Both the position numbers and the translations under genes were made by a program. A DNA stretch of 64,000 nt from Asticcacaulis machinosus (GTDB lineage: Bacteria > Pseudomonadota > Alphaproteobacteria > Caulobacterales > Caulobacteraceae), in the NCBI RefSeq assembly GCF_028550435.1, contig NZ_JAQQKV010000003.1, positions 1 through 64,000 of the forward strand. The letters run 5' to 3'. Below the pieces are notes generated by a model. That model ran no database searches, was not told where the DNA came from, and saw nothing but the letters and a program-made list of their open reading frames with translations. Below are positions 12,091-24,409 of the stretch, in pieces; position 1 is the first letter of the stretch, and the number at the start of each line of letters is the position of its first letter.

Positions 12091-12222
12091 AACCAGATCC
12101 CCATGAATAGATATGCTCAGCCCCAGTGACGAGCGTCTTACGGTTAAAGGGACGGATAAGAGACCGATTTACCCGACAGGTCATTTCGTGAATTATTCGT
12201 GACAGATTTAAGCTTATGTATT

Positions 12223-13179: not shown

Positions 13180-13687
13180 ATTTTACGCGTTTCTTTTCGG
13201 CTTTTTCGAGATGATCGTGCAGTTGGCGCAGGGCCCGTGAGATATGTTTTTCGACTGCATCAGGACTGAGGTTCAGGGCTTTCCCGATCTCCTCACACGT
13301 CTCACCCCGGACACGCCGCCGGATCAGCACTTCGCGCCTGAGCGGCGGCATGCCTTTTAAGGCGTCGGTGAAAACATCCAGTCGCTGGCGGTGCATCAGG
13401 ATCTGCTCCGGCAAGGGTTGATCGCAGGCAAGGTCAGTGTCGATTTCTTCGGTAGGGCGCGCTTTGGCGGCCCTGAAATGGTCGTTGATCAGATTGGTGG
13501 CGATGGCGCGCGCCAGACCGGTGAGATTTTCAACCGCATGACGGCGGCTGTAGCTGATCAGGCGGGCCAGAGTTTCCTGCACCACGTCTTCGCGCACGGC
13601 CTCATCGCGCACCTTGCCCGCGACAAACTGCATAAGACGGCCGCGCTCCTGCGGCACCCAGAAATGTTCGGGTAGTCCAGTCGCCAT
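13169..13687 (-). CDS. ECF sigma factor, FecI-like
   Basis: 172 aa. Region 2 (DEAVREDVVQETLARLISY) and region 4 with the helix-turn-helix (CEEIGKALNLSPDAVEKHISRAL) are clear, and there is no extra domain. It forms an overlapping sigma/FecR pair followed by the TBDR, so it is expected to transcribe the receptor operon. A Pho-box-like sequence lies just upstream (13710-13727), which would place the whole module under phosphate control. This is inference from the motif. Confidence 0.92.
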   Translation of the reverse strand: MATGLPEHFWVPQERGRLMQFVAGKVRDEAVREDVVQETLARLISYSRRHAVENLTGLARAIATNLINDHFRAAKARPTEEIDTDLACDQPLPEQILMHRQRLDVFTDALKGMPPLRREVLIRRRVRGETCEEIGKALNLSPDAVEKHISRALRQLHDHLEKAEKKRVKYDS

Positions 13688-13709
13688 GCCTGCTGAATAG
13701 ACGGCTTAG

Positions 13710-13727
13710 GTGACAGTTATATTACAA
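13710..13727 (-). promoter_or_regulatory. Pho-box-like PhoB site
   Basis: The minus strand reads TTGTAATATAACTGTCAC. That is two 7-mers with the exact 4-bp spacer of the known Pho box (CTGTCAT-N4-CTGTCAT): the first matches 5 of 7, the second 6 of 7, with the C often seen at its last position. It lies 23 bp before the sigma start, which leads a module ending in an alkaline phosphatase. Confidence 0.5.
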
Positions 13728-13740
13728 AATGAACCTGAGT

Positions 13741-14976
13741 TTATTCGACGCGAAGCAGGGCCACGATCTGATCGATCGTATGGTGGGCGCCGCTGAGGGC
13801 CTCATCGGCCGGCAGAACCATCAGATCGCGCCGTAGCCCTTGCGTCCAGTTCGATATCAATGCCGCGTCCTGAGCCCCCAAGGGCCCAAGCGGTGAGATC
13901 ATGCGCGACAGACCGTGATAGGTCGATCGCCCGCGGCTGTAGCGGATCATGGCCCCGACACCGTTCAGATCATCAGCACGAGCCGAGGCCGACATCAGTT
14001 CTTCCATGCCGAGCAGATCTTCGACAAGTGCGGGTTTCTGGACAAAGTGGATCAGATTGTCTTTGAACTGTTGGTGGGTGTAAGGCTCGTTTTCATCGCG
14101 AACCACATTGCGGGTCAGGCGCAGATAAATATTTATCCAGGCCGCGTGCATCAGGGTGTCGCTGGTCGGGAAGTGGTAGGTGACCGCCCCCAGATTAACC
14201 CCGCTTTCGCGCGCCACGGCGCGGTGGGTGACGGCGGCGGCGCCAAAGCGGCCCACAATCATGGCTGCAGCCTCGGCGATCTGTTCGGCGATTGAGCCGT
14301 GGGCGATGATCGGCGTGGTGAGTTTTTCGCTTTCAAGCCTTGCGAAATGACGAAGCGCCCCGTCACCGGCACGACTGGTCGTCAGCAGTCGCGCCCAGCC
14401 CTGACAGGTCTCGGTAAGGCAGGCCCGGTCAAGCGCCCGACGCCAGGTAATCCGGTGCAAAAATGATTCGCCGTCGAAAAACTGACGCGTGATATCGGCA
14501 TAGGCCCCAAAGCCCATGCGGGCGCACATATCATCCCAAAAGGCTTTCCAGATGTCGCGCCACTGGCGGGCGAGGGGGGCGAAGGTGTCATCGCGCGCCG
14601 CCATCATCTGACATTCCCGCCAGGCAAAGGCGTGGGGCCGCTGAGTAACCGTCCAGTCATCAATCAGGGCGGCCATCATCGCACCGAATCCTTCGGGGGC
14701 AATCGCCGGAAGGCCGTCGGTCTGCGACAGTTGCCGGTCACACCAGATTTGCGCGGCGATCATGGATTGAGCTTGTGCCGAAGCTAACAACTGTTCAAAA
14801 TTGCCAAAATAATAATTTATCTGAGATGTCTGAACTTCGGCGGTCTGACTGATTTGGCGGGCGGTCATATTGGCTCGTCCAAGGGGCGGCCAGGCGGCTT
14901 GAACGGCTTCCAAAAGGCGGTCTGCGGGCGGTGTGTCGGTGACGGGACTGGCTTTCAGGCTTTTGATTGTCTTCAT
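13741..14976 (-). CDS. Tandem TetR-like regulator (two DNA-binding units in one chain)
   Basis: 411 aa, about twice the usual TetR length. Two TetR-type helix-turn-helix units are visible: TARQISQTAEVQTSQINYYF (38-57) and THRAVARESGVNLGAVTYHF (250-269). Each is followed by a helical ligand/dimer domain, so the protein looks like an intramolecular dimer or a fusion. It is divergent from the TBDR/phosphatase operon at 15215, with a 238-bp shared region carrying two AAACGTT sites. The simplest reading is that it controls that operon. Its effector is unknown. Confidence 0.82.
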   Translation of the reverse strand: MKTIKSLKASPVTDTPPADRLLEAVQAAWPPLGRANMTARQISQTAEVQTSQINYYFGNFEQLLASAQAQSMIAAQIWCDRQLSQTDGLPAIAPEGFGAMMAALIDDWTVTQRPHAFAWRECQMMAARDDTFAPLARQWRDIWKAFWDDMCARMGFGAYADITRQFFDGESFLHRITWRRALDRACLTETCQGWARLLTTSRAGDGALRHFARLESEKLTTPIIAHGSIAEQIAEAAAMIVGRFGAAAVTHRAVARESGVNLGAVTYHFPTSDTLMHAAWINIYLRLTRNVVRDENEPYTHQQFKDNLIHFVQKPALVEDLLGMEELMSASARADDLNGVGAMIRYSRGRSTYHGLSRMISPLGPLGAQDAALISNWTQGLRRDLMVLPADEALSGAHHTIDQIVALLRVE

Positions 14977-15144
14977 AAAAGCTTATTTTGTAATAGATTT
15001 GGCGGGTATGTGTGCGAATGAGGGATTGTATATACTATTTTCAGGGGGTGTCGCTAGTGATCAGTGTGTTGGGGTGTAAGATTGTGCCGTGTGCGGTCGG
15101 ATTTGACACGTAAGTGTCGTGAGGTTGTAAAAATTGCTTCATAC

Positions 15145-18713: not shown

Positions 18714-18734
18714 AAGTCTAACCACGCCTGATGG

Positions 18735-18767
18735 AAAAACCGGCCCTGACAGGGGCCGGTTTTTTTG
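18735..18767 (+). terminator. Rho-independent terminator of the TBDR/phosphatase operon
   Basis: A stem with arms AACCGGCCC/GGGCCGGTT around TGACA is flanked by A and T runs, 20 nt after the phosphatase stop. It rules out starting the next gene before this point. Confidence 0.9.
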
Positions 18768-18815
18768 TCTTCAGGGGGCAAGTCGCCATTATGTTGGCGC
18801 TCAGCCTATGCCAAA

Positions 18816-18835
18816 CTGTCACAAAGGTCTGTTAT
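18816..18835 (+). promoter_or_regulatory. Pair of CTGTYAY half sites before the sigma gene
   Basis: CTGTCAC (18816-18822) and CTGTTAT (18829-18835) resemble Pho-box half sites, but the spacer is 6 bp and not 4, so PhoB binding is doubtful. They lie 9 bp before the predicted start at 18845. Confidence 0.3.
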
Positions 18836-18844
18836 GGCCGCCGC

Positions 18845-19366
18845 ATGGCGGATACCTGTGCAATGACGATGGCTTATGGCGGCGGCAGTTTCGATGCCCT
18901 GTCCCGTCGTCTGCGCACCCCGCTGATGCAGTTCTTTATGCGCCGCACAGGCTCGCAGGCGGATGCCGAGGAACTGGTGCAGGAGTTGTTTTTACGCCTG
19001 CTGCGCCGCAAGGATCTGTTCAGCCTGCAAAATCTGGACGGTTATGTATTTGAAACCGCCTCGAACCTGATCCGCGATAAGGTGCGGCGCGATACGGCGC
19101 GCTCAACCGACCGCCACGATGATGTCAGCGATCTGGATATCGCCACGGACGCGCCGTCAGCCGAGCAGGGCCTTGAGTCGCGGCAACGGCTGAACCGGAT
19201 GCTGGCGGCTCTGGATTCCTTGCCCGCGCGTGCGCAAACCATAGTTATCCTGCGCCGGTTTGAGGATATGAGCTATGCTCAGATCGCCAGGCGGCTTGGG
19301 ATATCGATCAGCGCCGTCGAAAAACATATGGTCAGGGCGATGGACGCCCTTAAGCAAATCGACTAA
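18845..19366 (+). CDS. ECF sigma factor, FecI-like
   Basis: 173 aa from the ATG at 18845. The open frame extends to 18731 but runs through the terminator hairpin, so the later start is preferred; ATG 18863 is an alternative. Region 2 (ADAEELVQELFLRLLRR) and region 4 (YAQIARRLGISISAVEKHMVRAM) are clear. It is 12 bp upstream of a FecR gene and then a TBDR and phoD, which it should control through surface signalling. Confidence 0.9.
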   Translation: MADTCAMTMAYGGGSFDALSRRLRTPLMQFFMRRTGSQADAEELVQELFLRLLRRKDLFSLQNLDGYVFETASNLIRDKVRRDTARSTDRHDDVSDLDIATDAPSAEQGLESRQRLNRMLAALDSLPARAQTIVILRRFEDMSYAQIARRLGISISAVEKHMVRAMDALKQID

Positions 19367-19378
19367 TCACAGGGCGTT

Positions 19379-20335
19379 ATGGATATACCTAAAACCGCTG
19401 ACGAATGGTTCGTCCGCCTGCATTCAGGCCATCCGGTTTCCCCGCAGGACGAGGCCGATCTGCGCGCGTGGCTGGCGCAAAATCCTGACCATGAGGCTCA
19501 GTTGCGTCAGTGCGAGGCCCGCTGGGCGCAACTGTCAGCGCTGTCGCAGTCACCAGAAATTCAGGCGCGGCGGGCGCGGGCATTGCGCGAGACGTCGCCT
19601 AAGACTGTGGACATGGGGCGGCGCGGTCTGTTTAAAATGGCCGGTGGCGGGATCGCCGCCGCCCTTGTGCTGGGCACCGGCTGGACCGTCCTGACGCCGG
19701 GCGGGGCGCAGGCGGCTTATGTCACGGCCGCGGGTGAGCGACTGACGACCCAACTGCCGGACGGGTCGGAACTGACGCTGGCGCCCTTGAGCGAAGCGCG
19801 GGTTAGGTTCACCGGCGGCAAGCGCGAGGTAAATCTGCTGGCGGGTCAGGCGTTCATTACGGCGGTGCGTAAAGGTGCGCCGTTGTCAGTGACGGCGGGT
19901 AACTGCACGGTTGAGGGGGCGGGCTGCCAGTTTCAGGTAACGCTGACCGCAGGCCGTGCCGATGTGATCATCGCCGACGGTGGCGCTACGGTCAGGTCTT
20001 CGGACGGCCGGGTGCGCAAGCTGTGGTCGGGGCAGACACTGGCCAATGCCGGGGCCGCTGCCTCACGGGTCGGGGCCGCAGATGTCCGCACACAAACCGA
20101 ATGGCGGCATGGGCGGCTGGTGTTCCGCGATCAGCCTTTGTCCGAAGTGGTGGCCGATTTTAACCGCTATTCTTCTGATCAGTTTGTGATTGAGGATGCG
20201 CAACTGGCCGGACTGCGGTTGTCGGGCTCATTTCGCTATGACGGGGTCGAAGATTTTCCGGCCGCACTTGAAACCGTTCTTGGGCTTGAGGTTACCACAA
20301 ACGGGCCGCACCGCTGGGCCATCCGTAAGGGCTGA
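19379..20335 (+). CDS. FecR-type signal transducer
   Basis: 318 aa. Order: N-terminal cytoplasmic domain (ADEWFVRLHSGHPVSPQDEADLRAWL), a hydrophobic segment at about 83-105, the FecR core (LPDGSELTLAPLSEARVRF; KREVNLLAGQAFITA) and a C-terminal STN-like module (PLSEVVADFNRYSSDQFVI). The pair sits on the receptor's upstream side in the same direction, as in classical fec systems. It should hold or activate the sigma factor at 18845 depending on occupancy of the receptor at 20443. Confidence 0.92.
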   Translation: MDIPKTADEWFVRLHSGHPVSPQDEADLRAWLAQNPDHEAQLRQCEARWAQLSALSQSPEIQARRARALRETSPKTVDMGRRGLFKMAGGGIAAALVLGTGWTVLTPGGAQAAYVTAAGERLTTQLPDGSELTLAPLSEARVRFTGGKREVNLLAGQAFITAVRKGAPLSVTAGNCTVEGAGCQFQVTLTAGRADVIIADGGATVRSSDGRVRKLWSGQTLANAGAAASRVGAADVRTQTEWRHGRLVFRDQPLSEVVADFNRYSSDQFVIEDAQLAGLRLSGSFRYDGVEDFPAALETVLGLEVTTNGPHRWAIRKG

Positions 20336-20442
20336 AACCTCAGCCGGAAATATGAAATTTTTGCGACGGAGTGAGGATTGGTTAATCGGGTGCGTTCCTG
20401 AAGTTGGGCCGGGTTGATTGCCCTGTATCAGGAAAGACCACG

Positions 20443-22923
20443 ATGACTTCTAACCGTTTCAAGCCATTTCTCATGACGTTCTGTGCGGCTGCCGCGTGCA
20501 TGGTGGCGCCGCTGTCTATGGCGCAGGCGCAAACTCCGGTCGCGTTCGCCATTCAGGATCAGCCCCTTGATCAGGCCCTCATCGAATTCGCCCGCGTCGC
20601 CAATGTGCAGGTTCTGTTTACGCCGGATATGGTGCGCGGTAAGCGCGCTAACCGGGTCAGCGGCACCTTGCCGGCCGACAAGGCTCTGAACGCCCTGCTT
20701 AACGGCACCGGCGTCGGTATCAAAAGCGTCAGCGCCGATGGCCGCACCTTCTCGCTGGGGGCCACCGCGGTCGCCGAAGAAGAACCTGAACTGGTAGTCG
20801 TCACGGCGCTTAAGCGCTCATCCGCCATCGCCAGGGTTCCGGCGGCGGTGGTCGCGATGAATGCCAGTGAAATTCGCGAACGCGGCATCAATGGCGCGGA
20901 CGGTCTGGTTGACGAAGTGCCGGGTGTTTCCATCAACTATTCGACCGGCGGCACGGGCTATGGCCTTTTGAGCATCCGCGGCATCGGCGGGGCCGACGAC
21001 TATAAGCCCAATGGCTCGCCGTCAGTGGCCCTGCATGTCGATGGCATCTACCAGACCTCGAACGCCTATGTCGGCATGCCGTTGTTTGACCTTGACCGGA
21101 TTGAGGTTCTGAAAGGCCCGCAAGGCACGCTCTATGGCCGTAACACGACCGCAGGCGTTATCAATGCCATCACCAAAGGCCCGTCGGAAGGCTTTGACGG
21201 CTATGCCGATGTCCGCGCCGGTAACTATGACTATACCCGCTTTGAAACGGCCTTCGGCGGTAAGGTCAGCGAAAACTTCGGCGTGCGTTTAGCTGTCATG
21301 GCTGAAAACGGCGGCGGCTTCATGGACGGCGAAGGGGCGGGCACCCTGGCCGGTTTTCGCCCCAGCGTAGGTGGCGTGGTGCAGACACAAGTGCCTGCAG
21401 TCACCGATCCGGGCAAGCGCGAAGGCTTTGGCGATAAGGATATGGTTGCCGCCCGCGCCACCTTTTCGTTTGATTTCGCGCCTGAGACCAATCTGACACT
21501 CAAAACCTTCGCCAGCCGTGACCGCGGTGACAGCCGTCAGTATGACCGTCTGGCCCGCGCTCAGGACAATACTCAGTTCAATGCCGGTGAAAACGCCGAT
21601 CCCTATAGCTTCTATTCGCAGAAATACTTTACCCACGCCTATGATATCCGCGGCCTGTCGGGCACCCTGACGCACCGCCTGAAGGACAATCTCAACCTGA
21701 CCGTGGTCGGCGGCGTGCAATCGACCGACCGCACTGACGGCGGCAATGGCGATGGCTCACCCTATCCCGGCTATGAGTACGCCTTTGATGAAACCCTGTC
21801 TCAGGCCTCACTGGAAATGCGCCTGAGCGACGATAACGGCGGTAAGTTCGACTGGATTTTGGGCGCGTTTTACCTAAGCGACTCGGCTGATTTTGACTCG
21901 ACCTGGACCAGCTTTACCGTGCGCTCAGTCTACGACAACAATCACGAGCAGCGCCGTAACTCCTTCGCGCTGTTTGGTCAGGGCGATTACAATGTCACCG
22001 ATAAACTGCGCTTGTCGGCAGGTCTGCGCTACACCCGCGACACAGTCGATTACAAGGGCCAGAACATCGACCATAATCCGTGGGGCATCTCGATCTACAA
22101 CACGACCTTTGCCACGGTCAGCGGCTTTAGCTGGGACCGGAATTTTGAGGACGACAACCTGTCGGGGCGTCTGACAGCGCAATATTTCATCAGCGACAGC
22201 CTCAATGTGTTCGCCTCGGCCTCAACCGGCTATCGCGGCGGCGGATTTGACGGCACCTCGATCATGACGCTGGAAGAAACCCTGCCGTTTGATTCAGAAA
22301 CCGTGACCGCCTATGAGGCCGGTGCGCGCTGGTACAAAGGCCGCTTCCGCGCTTCGGCAGATGTCTTTGCCTACAGCTTCAAGAACCTTCAGGCGACGAC
22401 CCGTCTGGCCAATGACACCAATGGCCGCACCAACGTGGGTAAGGCCGAAACGTCGGGCATCGATCTGGCGGTCGGGGCGCGTCTGTTTAACGGTGAGACC
22501 CAAAAGCTGGATCTTGACCTGTCGGCGGCCTTCCTGGAGTCGGAAATCACCGAGTACCAGTCGCGCCGTGCGGCGGATGTGACGGCCACCGTTGGCGATC
22601 CTTTGCCGGGCGCACCGGATGTGACGGCGAACCTAAGCCTGACGCATCGGGTGGCCTTCAGCGGCGGCTGGGATCTGACCTCACGTCTGACGGTGGCGCA
22701 TCACGGCGAAGAGTCCAATCGCCTGAACGCTCTGCCCAATAACACGGCGGAAGCCTATACCCTGACCAATCTCCATATTGATCTGGCCTCACCGGCATCA
22801 TGGTCAGTCTATGCCTATGGTAAGAACGTCACGGATGAGGTCTATTTCCCGGAGAAGAACGGGGCCTCGCGTCTGGTGGGCGCGCCGGCGACCTATGGCC
22901 TGGGGCTGCGCTACAGCTTCTAG
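20443..22923 (+). CDS. TonB-dependent receptor with STN domain
   Basis: 826 aa from the ATG at 20443, which has AGGAAA upstream; a longer TTG-started frame begins at 20404. Order: signal peptide (to about 30), STN domain (34-106), TonB box (EPELVVVTA, about 114-122), plug (VDEVPGVSINYSTGG; LKGPQGTLYGRNTTAGVINAI) and barrel ending in GLRYSF. The plug and barrel resemble classical iron/cobalamin-type receptors more than the large Caulobacter type, so it differs from the other five in the window. PhoD follows 73 bp later, suggesting a phosphorus-containing ligand. Confidence 0.92.
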   Translation: MTSNRFKPFLMTFCAAAACMVAPLSMAQAQTPVAFAIQDQPLDQALIEFARVANVQVLFTPDMVRGKRANRVSGTLPADKALNALLNGTGVGIKSVSADGRTFSLGATAVAEEEPELVVVTALKRSSAIARVPAAVVAMNASEIRERGINGADGLVDEVPGVSINYSTGGTGYGLLSIRGIGGADDYKPNGSPSVALHVDGIYQTSNAYVGMPLFDLDRIEVLKGPQGTLYGRNTTAGVINAITKGPSEGFDGYADVRAGNYDYTRFETAFGGKVSENFGVRLAVMAENGGGFMDGEGAGTLAGFRPSVGGVVQTQVPAVTDPGKREGFGDKDMVAARATFSFDFAPETNLTLKTFASRDRGDSRQYDRLARAQDNTQFNAGENADPYSFYSQKYFTHAYDIRGLSGTLTHRLKDNLNLTVVGGVQSTDRTDGGNGDGSPYPGYEYAFDETLSQASLEMRLSDDNGGKFDWILGAFYLSDSADFDSTWTSFTVRSVYDNNHEQRRNSFALFGQGDYNVTDKLRLSAGLRYTRDTVDYKGQNIDHNPWGISIYNTTFATVSGFSWDRNFEDDNLSGRLTAQYFISDSLNVFASASTGYRGGGFDGTSIMTLEETLPFDSETVTAYEAGARWYKGRFRASADVFAYSFKNLQATTRLANDTNGRTNVGKAETSGIDLAVGARLFNGETQKLDLDLSAAFLESEITEYQSRRAADVTATVGDPLPGAPDVTANLSLTHRVAFSGGWDLTSRLTVAHHGEESNRLNALPNNTAEAYTLTNLHIDLASPASWSVYAYGKNVTDEVYFPEKNGASRLVGAPATYGLGLRYSF

Positions 22924-22946
22924 TCCAAGGGTAATGTTGCATAACG

Positions 22947-22971
22947 GCGTCCCCTCCTGACGGAGGGGGCG
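22947..22971 (+). other. GC-rich intercistronic hairpin before phoD
   Basis: Arms GCG-CCCCTCC/GGAGGGG-CGC (one mismatch each side) enclose a TGAC loop, with no T tract. It lies between the TBDR stop and the phoD start and probably stabilises or punctuates the mRNA. It is positioned like the hairpin at 9101. Confidence 0.6.
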
Positions 22972-22996
22972 CCATCACTGTTTTCAGGAGAGGCTC

Positions 22997-24409
22997 ATGT
23001 CTGTGGATCGCCGTACCGTTATTGCGAGCGGACTGTTTGCCGTGTCACCTTTGAATGCACTGGCGCAGTCCAATGTGCACTGGGACGGCATTCCGCGTCT
23101 GATGCAGGGGCCGGTGCTGGGGTGGTGCTCTGGCACAGAAGCTACGGTCTGGACGCGCGCCAGCGGCGCCTGTGCCGTGTCGATCCAGTACGACAAAGAC
23201 CCGCGTTTTTCGGCGGCAAAGACGACCCCCGCCCTGACCGCAAACGTCGATGATGACTTCACACAGGTGCATCGTCTTACCGGCCTGACACCCGGTGAAA
23301 CCTATGCCTACCGCGTGCTGATCAATGGCAAACCCAACCCCGATGAGGTGGGATTTGAGCCGCATCGCCTGCGTACCGCGTCCTCAGAGCCCGCGCGGTT
23401 TCGGATGGCCTTTGGCTCATGTGCCCGTCGCGCCCGCTATCCGGTGCAGCCGATCTGGAAGGCAGTGGAACAGGCGCAGCCGGATCTGTTTATCTGGGCG
23501 GGCGATGCGGTCTATGCCGACAGTCCCGATCCATCGGTGGTGGCCGAAGAATACCGCCGTCAGCGCGATCTGCCTGAAATCCGATCGTTTATGGCTTCGG
23601 TACCGCAACTGGCGATCTGGGATGATCACGACTATGGCCTGAACGACCATGATCGCCGCCATCCGCACAAGGACGGTGCGCTTAAGATGTTTAAGCAATA
23701 CTGGCCCAATCCGGCGGCGGGCCTGACCGGCGTGCCGGGGACGTTTTTCAAGCATGGCTACGGCGGCGTCGATTTCTTTTTTCTTGATGTGCGCTATAAC
23801 CGCGACCCTAATATGGACCCGGACACACCGCAGAAAACCATGCTGGGTAAGGCGCAGTTCGATTGGTTGCTGGCGGGTTTGCGCGCCTCCAAAGCGCCAT
23901 TCAAGGTGCTGGTTTCGGGTTCAGGTTGGACGGACTCAAAGGCAGTAGGGGCGGATTCGTGGGCCTCATTTACCCATGAACGTGACCGCCTGTTTGGCCT
24001 GATCATGAAGGAAAATATCACCGGCGTTATCCTTTTGTCCGGCGATACCCATTTCGGTGAGATGAACTGCCTGCCGTGGTCAGATAAGGGCGGTTATGAC
24101 CTTTATGAATTCGTAAGCTCACCTCTGGCGCAGGACACCGAAGACCTGTTTTTAGATTACCGGCCCGTTTTGCGCGTGCGGCAGGCTTACCCTAAGGATG
24201 TCAATTTCGGTGTGGTTGATTTTGACCTGTCAAAGCCCGATCCAACGGTGACCTTTGACCTGAGGGACGAAGGCGGGCAGTCGGTGTGGGCGCCTGTGAC
24301 CGTGCGGGCCTCAGACCTCAGACCGGGGCAGACCTCATGGCCTGAAAAACTGGATAAGGTATCTCAGTCGCGCTGGCAGCGGTTTGTCACCACAGGGCGA
24401 TATTATTGA
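22997..24409 (+). CDS. phoD: PhoD-type alkaline phosphatase/phosphodiesterase, Tat-exported
   Basis: 470 aa. The leader has a twin Arg (DRRTVIASG) and ends near residue 23; PhoD enzymes are known Tat substrates. An N-terminal beta domain (about 35-130) precedes the metallophosphatase domain with FGSC (Cys142, a metal ligand in PhoD), WAGDAVYAD (Asp170), WDDHDYG (208-214) and SGDTHFGE near 349. It cleaves phosphomono- and diesters in the periplasm. AGGAG lies just before the ATG. It is the third distinct phosphatase class coupled to a TBDR in this region. Confidence 0.93.
   Translation: MSVDRRTVIASGLFAVSPLNALAQSNVHWDGIPRLMQGPVLGWCSGTEATVWTRASGACAVSIQYDKDPRFSAAKTTPALTANVDDDFTQVHRLTGLTPGETYAYRVLINGKPNPDEVGFEPHRLRTASSEPARFRMAFGSCARRARYPVQPIWKAVEQAQPDLFIWAGDAVYADSPDPSVVAEEYRRQRDLPEIRSFMASVPQLAIWDDHDYGLNDHDRRHPHKDGALKMFKQYWPNPAAGLTGVPGTFFKHGYGGVDFFFLDVRYNRDPNMDPDTPQKTMLGKAQFDWLLAGLRASKAPFKVLVSGSGWTDSKAVGADSWASFTHERDRLFGLIMKENITGVILLSGDTHFGEMNCLPWSDKGGYDLYEFVSSPLAQDTEDLFLDYRPVLRVRQAYPKDVNFGVVDFDLSKPDPTVTFDLRDEGGQSVWAPVTVRASDLRPGQTSWPEKLDKVSQSRWQRFVTTGRYY

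Follow-up and report, generated by a model that had tools for sequence, protein, structure and literature searches.

We report that the promoter of a FecI-like ECF sigma gene (SIG1) of Asticcacaulis machinosus, in a window of 64,000 nucleotides, carries the element TTGTAAT-ATAA-CTGTCAC. We consider it likely that this is a genuine Pho box, through which PhoB would drive the sigma and fecR genes, and that the freed sigma factor, probably together with PhoB, would drive the receptor and phosphatase genes. The sensor would then probably be made only under phosphate starvation, and production of the phosphatase would probably require the presence of its substrate as well.

The sigma gene heads an alkaline phosphatase module, as the preliminary description had it, being accompanied on the minus strand by fecR, the gene of an STN-bearing TonB-dependent receptor and a phosphatase gene of family PF00245 (Table 1). 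The ECF sigma factor beside a FecR-domain regulator, and the receptor with its STN signalling domain (PF07660) at the N-terminal end, at residues 61-109, give the composition of a FecI/FecR surface-signalling system. This gene content is a direct reading of the DNA, as are the promoter architectures and the conservation described below. The genome also encodes PhoB, scoring over the family cut-off, a pst operon and a second phoA gene (phoA2) with its own Pho box. The element stands where it had been described, ahead of the sigma gene and running from 13727 to 13710 on the minus strand, although 22 nt, and not the 23 bp given earlier, separate the last base of the 18-mer (13710) from the SIG1 ATG at 13687. 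On its other side, at 13741-14976 of the minus strand, lies the gene of a 411-amino-acid regulator with a Pfam TetR domain at residues 233-278 and a weak NCBIfam TetR-like match near its N terminus, which is possibly a fusion of two TetR units; in two sister species a different gene takes this position. A near-palindrome, TTGACACGTAAGTGTCGT, at 15103-15120 of the plus strand, ahead of a TonB receptor gene and a tyrosine-phosphatase-family gene, may be the operator of the adjacent TetR-type regulator.

Table 1. Coordinates of the modules' genes and promoter elements in the 64,000-nucleotide window
Feature	Position	Strand	Remarks
PhoA-family alkaline phosphatase, 490 aa	7669..9141	-	PF00245, 381 bits (cut-off 24.4)
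TonB-dependent receptor, 976 aa	9160..12090	-	TIGR01782, PF07660, PF07715, PF00593
Promoter 2, ECF -10 CGTCCC	12149..12154	-	C[GA]TC conserved 18-19 nt after TGTC[CG]
Promoter 2, ECF -35 TGTCGGG	12172..12178	-	TGTC[CG]GG conserved in the gap
Pho-like tandem CTGTCAC-GAAT-AATTCAC	12188..12205	-	upstream of promoter 2
FecR-type anti-sigma/sigma regulator, 318 aa	12223..13179	-	PF04773, PF16344; overlaps the sigma gene
FecI-like ECF sigma factor SIG1, 172 aa	13169..13687	-	PF08281, PF04542; TIGR02937 above cut-off
SIG1 start codon	13685..13687	-	coincides with the predicted transcription start
Promoter 1, predicted -10 TCTATTCA	13694..13701	-	TA at 13698-13699
Putative Pho box TTGTAAT-ATAA-CTGTCAC	13710..13727	-	left half 13721-13727, proximal half 13710-13716
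SIG2 promoter	18805..18847	+	CTGTCAC at 18816-18822; good proximal half-site only

The element consists of two direct CTGTCAT-like half-sites with an 11-bp period. The 7-4-7 layout that had been offered as the mark of a Pho box is thus present, but as a stand-alone argument it is weak: at three mismatches in 14 to the E. coli consensus the window holds 3 matches where 3.5 are expected. Counting mismatches to this consensus was therefore discarded as uninformative; over the whole genome the same threshold gives 262 matches against 102 for the reversed pattern. The case for a Pho box rests instead on the matrix score, the spacing and the conservation. A PhoB matrix built from Caulobacter ChIP data had been proposed for scoring; in its place we used one trained on 13 non-redundant Pho boxes upstream of pstC in other genera of the Caulobacteraceae, with the present genome left out. 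The site reaches 20.8 bits on this matrix and ranks first among 127,966 positions of the window, the runner-up standing at 12.9 bits, and it exceeds the genome's own pst (19.4 bits) and phoA2 (13.4 bits) boxes. Only 2 positions in total attain 20.8 bits in 150 simulated 64-kb windows of the same dinucleotide content. The combination of Pho box and -10 occurs a single time in the window, and CTGTCAY-N9-CTA is found 9 times in the 3.77 Mb genome, where the reversed control gives 5; SIG1, the SIG3 sigma gene, phoA2 and a TonB receptor gene are each preceded by one of these 9 sites.

Further Pho-like sites were observed in the genome. At G000:C1:807789-808007 (L005 and L006) at least two Pho-box-like arrays, one of 21.0 bits, lie upstream of a TonB receptor gene, which on this sequence is a probable PhoB target. 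The top score among the loci scanned, 23.6 bits, belongs to TTGTCACGAAACTGTCAT at L017 (G000:C2:1079080), within the opening codons of the longest ORF at that locus, which may in fact start further downstream.

The position of the element relative to the -10 is that expected of a PhoB-dependent promoter, with the proximal half about 10 bp before the -10, in place of a -35. The TA of the SIG1 -10 lies 17 nt after the C that opens the proximal half-site, and the same spacing is seen in other promoters of the genome, namely those of pst, phoA2 and a receptor gene with a Pho box. The E. coli pstS and phoA promoters have the same half-site-to--10 spacing. The SIG1 -10 is similar to the consensus GCTANAWC of Caulobacter RpoD (PMC8144410). 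Since the predicted start of transcription falls on the ATG, the sigma-fecR transcript is probably a leaderless mRNA. Most homologues have a start-like codon at a distance of 29-35 nt from the half-site, and in Asticcacaulis SIG1 and SIG2 and in most of SIG3 its frame is that of the sigma gene and stays open; for SIG2 the start is probably the ATG at 18845 and not 18731. In the Caulobacter homologues L139-L152 an out-of-frame ORF of 16-20 codons begins with an ATG 29-30 nt past the proximal half-site and stops near the start of the sigma gene; it may be a leaderless leader peptide with coupling to that gene.

Alignment of the homologous sigma upstream regions of the Caulobacteraceae gave 27 non-redundant promoters of the form AA-CTGTCA[CT]-AAA-N7-cTA, in which the TGTCA core of the proximal half is nearly invariant and the TA lies exactly 17 nt from the C in 27 of 27. 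When the TA is not required, a single TGTCA is still found in nearly every upstream region with the TA present, so the spacing is not an artefact of the way in which sites were picked. The sequence TTGTAATATAACTGTCAC is kept in the four closest orthologues, two of which differ in the gene and flank upstream. The left half-site is more variable. Asticcacaulis SIG1, SIG1b and SIG3 show an enrichment for it at exactly 11 bp, and both halves are present in SIG1 and in part of SIG1b and SIG3. Caulobacter and the PhoD-linked SIG2 lack it, and there a single half must suffice or another factor acts. A general lack of left-half conservation, which holds for these last two groups, is contradicted by the Sphingomonadales, whose promoter is a full tandem, CTGTCAY-N4-nCTTCAY-N8-nnTA.

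A scan of named genomes extends the sigma family to Sphingomonadales, Azospirillum, Nitrospirillum, Steroidobacter and others. Of 68 non-redundant upstream regions, 28 have half-sites with an 11-bp period, a descriptive count because the relaxed half-site was picked after some of those sequences had been seen, and the neighbouring periods, counted with the same relaxed half-site, give 1-4. The 11-bp tandem together with the TA at 17 nt is found in 25 of the 68, against 0.03 in shuffled sequences and 0 on the antisense strand. Two Brevundimonas loci (L135 and L137) that had seemed to be motif-free exceptions carry a relaxed right half, CTTCAC, with the TA at 17 nt and fit the Sphingomonas type; consequently there is no clean negative control inside the sigma clade.

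The idea of a two-key switch, raised in the preliminary description, needs a second promoter of the ECF type, and a conserved element of that type is present in the fecR-receptor gap (promoter 2, Table 1), with a transcription start predicted near 12142. The Pho-like tandem upstream of it recurs in homologues with an 11-bp period and a fixed 14 nt to the -35, and the strict pattern is present at 25 of 80 homologous loci (antisense control, 0). Scores of these repeats on the pst matrix are modest, 3.0 bits for the window's copy, so that action of PhoB at promoter 2 is plausible from the sequence and the case for it is weaker than at promoter 1. A second module (18731-24409, plus strand), about 5 kb from that of SIG1, comprises genes for the second FecI-like sigma factor (SIG2), preceded by a promoter resembling that of SIG1, FecR, a TonB receptor and a PhoD-like phosphatase; promoter 2 was not found in its fecR-receptor gap, which has a different conserved sequence, GGATTGGTTAATCGG.

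The enzymes encoded with members of the sigma clade include PhoA, PhoD, PhoX, purple-acid-phosphatase-like proteins, histidine acid phosphatase/AppA-like phytase and PI-PLC, along with a CehA/McbA-like metallohydrolase that falls below its family cut-off. Both promoters are absent from six FecI modules of the same genome that lie outside the clade, whose cargo, where identified, consists of glycosidases, pectinesterase and S9 peptidases, and from a heme oxygenase FecI/FecR module in a relative. This contrast is supportive and not decisive, the controls being other ECF clades in which clade and cargo are confounded.

Three other explanations of the element were weighed. It could be the sigma factor's own autoregulated ECF promoter, with CTGTCA as the -35 and the likeness to a Pho box accidental; the whole clade does have CTGTCA-N10-TA ahead of its sigma genes, and TGTC also begins the ECF -35 of promoter 2. 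We regard this as unlikely, because an ECF -35/-10 pair needs a longer spacing and a conserved CGTC -10 at the matching position, neither of which is seen here and both of which promoter 2 has, because the tandem 11-bp repeat is kept by the Sphingomonadales, and because pst and phoA2 show the identical layout without having a sigma factor of this kind. The assignment of CTGTCAC as an ECF -35 was rejected on the spacing and on this parallel with pst and phoA2.

Control of the sigma gene by a different OmpR-family response regulator with a TGTCA half-site, rather than by PhoB, would draw on the roughly ten further OmpR/PhoB-type regulators in the genome and on the Caulobacter promoters, which retain one half-site only. 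Against it stand the best matrix match, which is to the pst boxes, the phosphatase cargo and the spacing identical to that of pst and phoA2, and we consider such a substitution very doubtful. That the 7-4-7 match is functionless and due to chance is in keeping with its three mismatches to the E. coli consensus, which is the chance level, but becomes highly improbable given the first rank on the matrix with two equals in 150 simulated windows, the tandem and TA in 25 of 68 regions against 0.03, and a box that is identical among orthologues whose upstream sequences are unrelated.

We therefore return to the Pho box acted on by PhoB. During phosphate starvation, PhoB~P on TTGTAAT-ATAA-CTGTCAC at the -35 position would recruit RNA polymerase, probably with the housekeeping sigma factor, to judge from the resemblance of the -10 to GCTANAWC, and the output would be a transcript of sigma and fecR that is probably leaderless. 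FecR, a type of protein that can be either an anti-sigma factor or an activator, would retain the sigma factor for as long as the STN-type TonB receptor is without its ligand, which is presumably an organic compound of phosphate. Once the ligand is bound, the released sigma factor would fire promoter 2, probably with PhoB on the second Pho-like repeat. Receptor and alkaline phosphatase would then rise, giving a two-key switch in which PhoB possibly acts twice. We infer the occupancy by PhoB, the regulation, the specificity of the sigma factor and the ligand from the features described above.

The logic of sigma factor, FecR and STN receptor is like that of the E. coli FecI-FecR-FecA system for iron citrate, the sigma genes of which are Fur-controlled. 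A closer likeness is to VreA-VreI-VreR (PUMA3) of Pseudomonas aeruginosa, in which a FecI-like sigma factor and a FecR-like anti-sigma factor are under a PhoB promoter (PMC4971064), an arrangement that is predicted here. The target promoters of sigma-VreI have a pho box upstream of the -35/-10 and require both PhoB and the sigma factor (PMC4971064); promoter 2 may be comparable, with a conserved 11-bp Pho-like repeat upstream of the -35, but the window's copy scores only 3.0 bits on the pst matrix. Unlike in PUMA3, both predicted targets, a phosphatase and a signalling receptor of full length, belong to the same cluster, the Pho box of the sigma promoter is at the -35 position, and relatives are spread across Caulobacterales, Sphingomonadales and others with interchangeable phosphatases. 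The PUSI-III clusters of Flavobacterium johnsoniae, induced by Pi starvation, comprise an ECF sigma factor, a FecR-like regulator, a SusC/TonB receptor and a phosphatase/phosphodiesterase (PMC8115612); the likeness is one of gene content, and PUSI-III, unlike the present module, is a Bacteroidetes PusCD system. The PhoB regulon of Caulobacter crescentus, as far as its description in the main text goes, includes pst, TonB receptors, phosphatases and a phytase, and the term 'sigma factor' is absent from that text (PMC11208175). PhoB control of a FecI-type sigma factor is thus already known from VreI, and the phosphatase-linked, widespread form appears to be new. No description of the arrangement in Caulobacterales or Sphingomonadales was found in the literature searched, and this novelty is provisional because the main Caulobacter PhoB ChIP study lies outside that search.

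More tentatively, as a proposal that falls a little short of probable, the modules may belong to a widespread PhoB-gated class of surface-signalling systems, in which PhoB acts twice in a coherent feed-forward AND gate and the phosphate-releasing enzymes are unrelated and interchangeable; PhoA, PhoD, PhoX, purple acid phosphatase, histidine acid phosphatase and PI-PLC would all have been fitted to the proposed gate. If this is true, the single worked example, VreI, would become general, and the Asticcacaulis and Caulobacter modules would be suited to direct two-input tests in bacteria that are not pathogens. It would also explain how oligotrophic alphaproteobacteria choose among several phosphatases: starvation would arm every sensor, and the substrate would select the enzyme.
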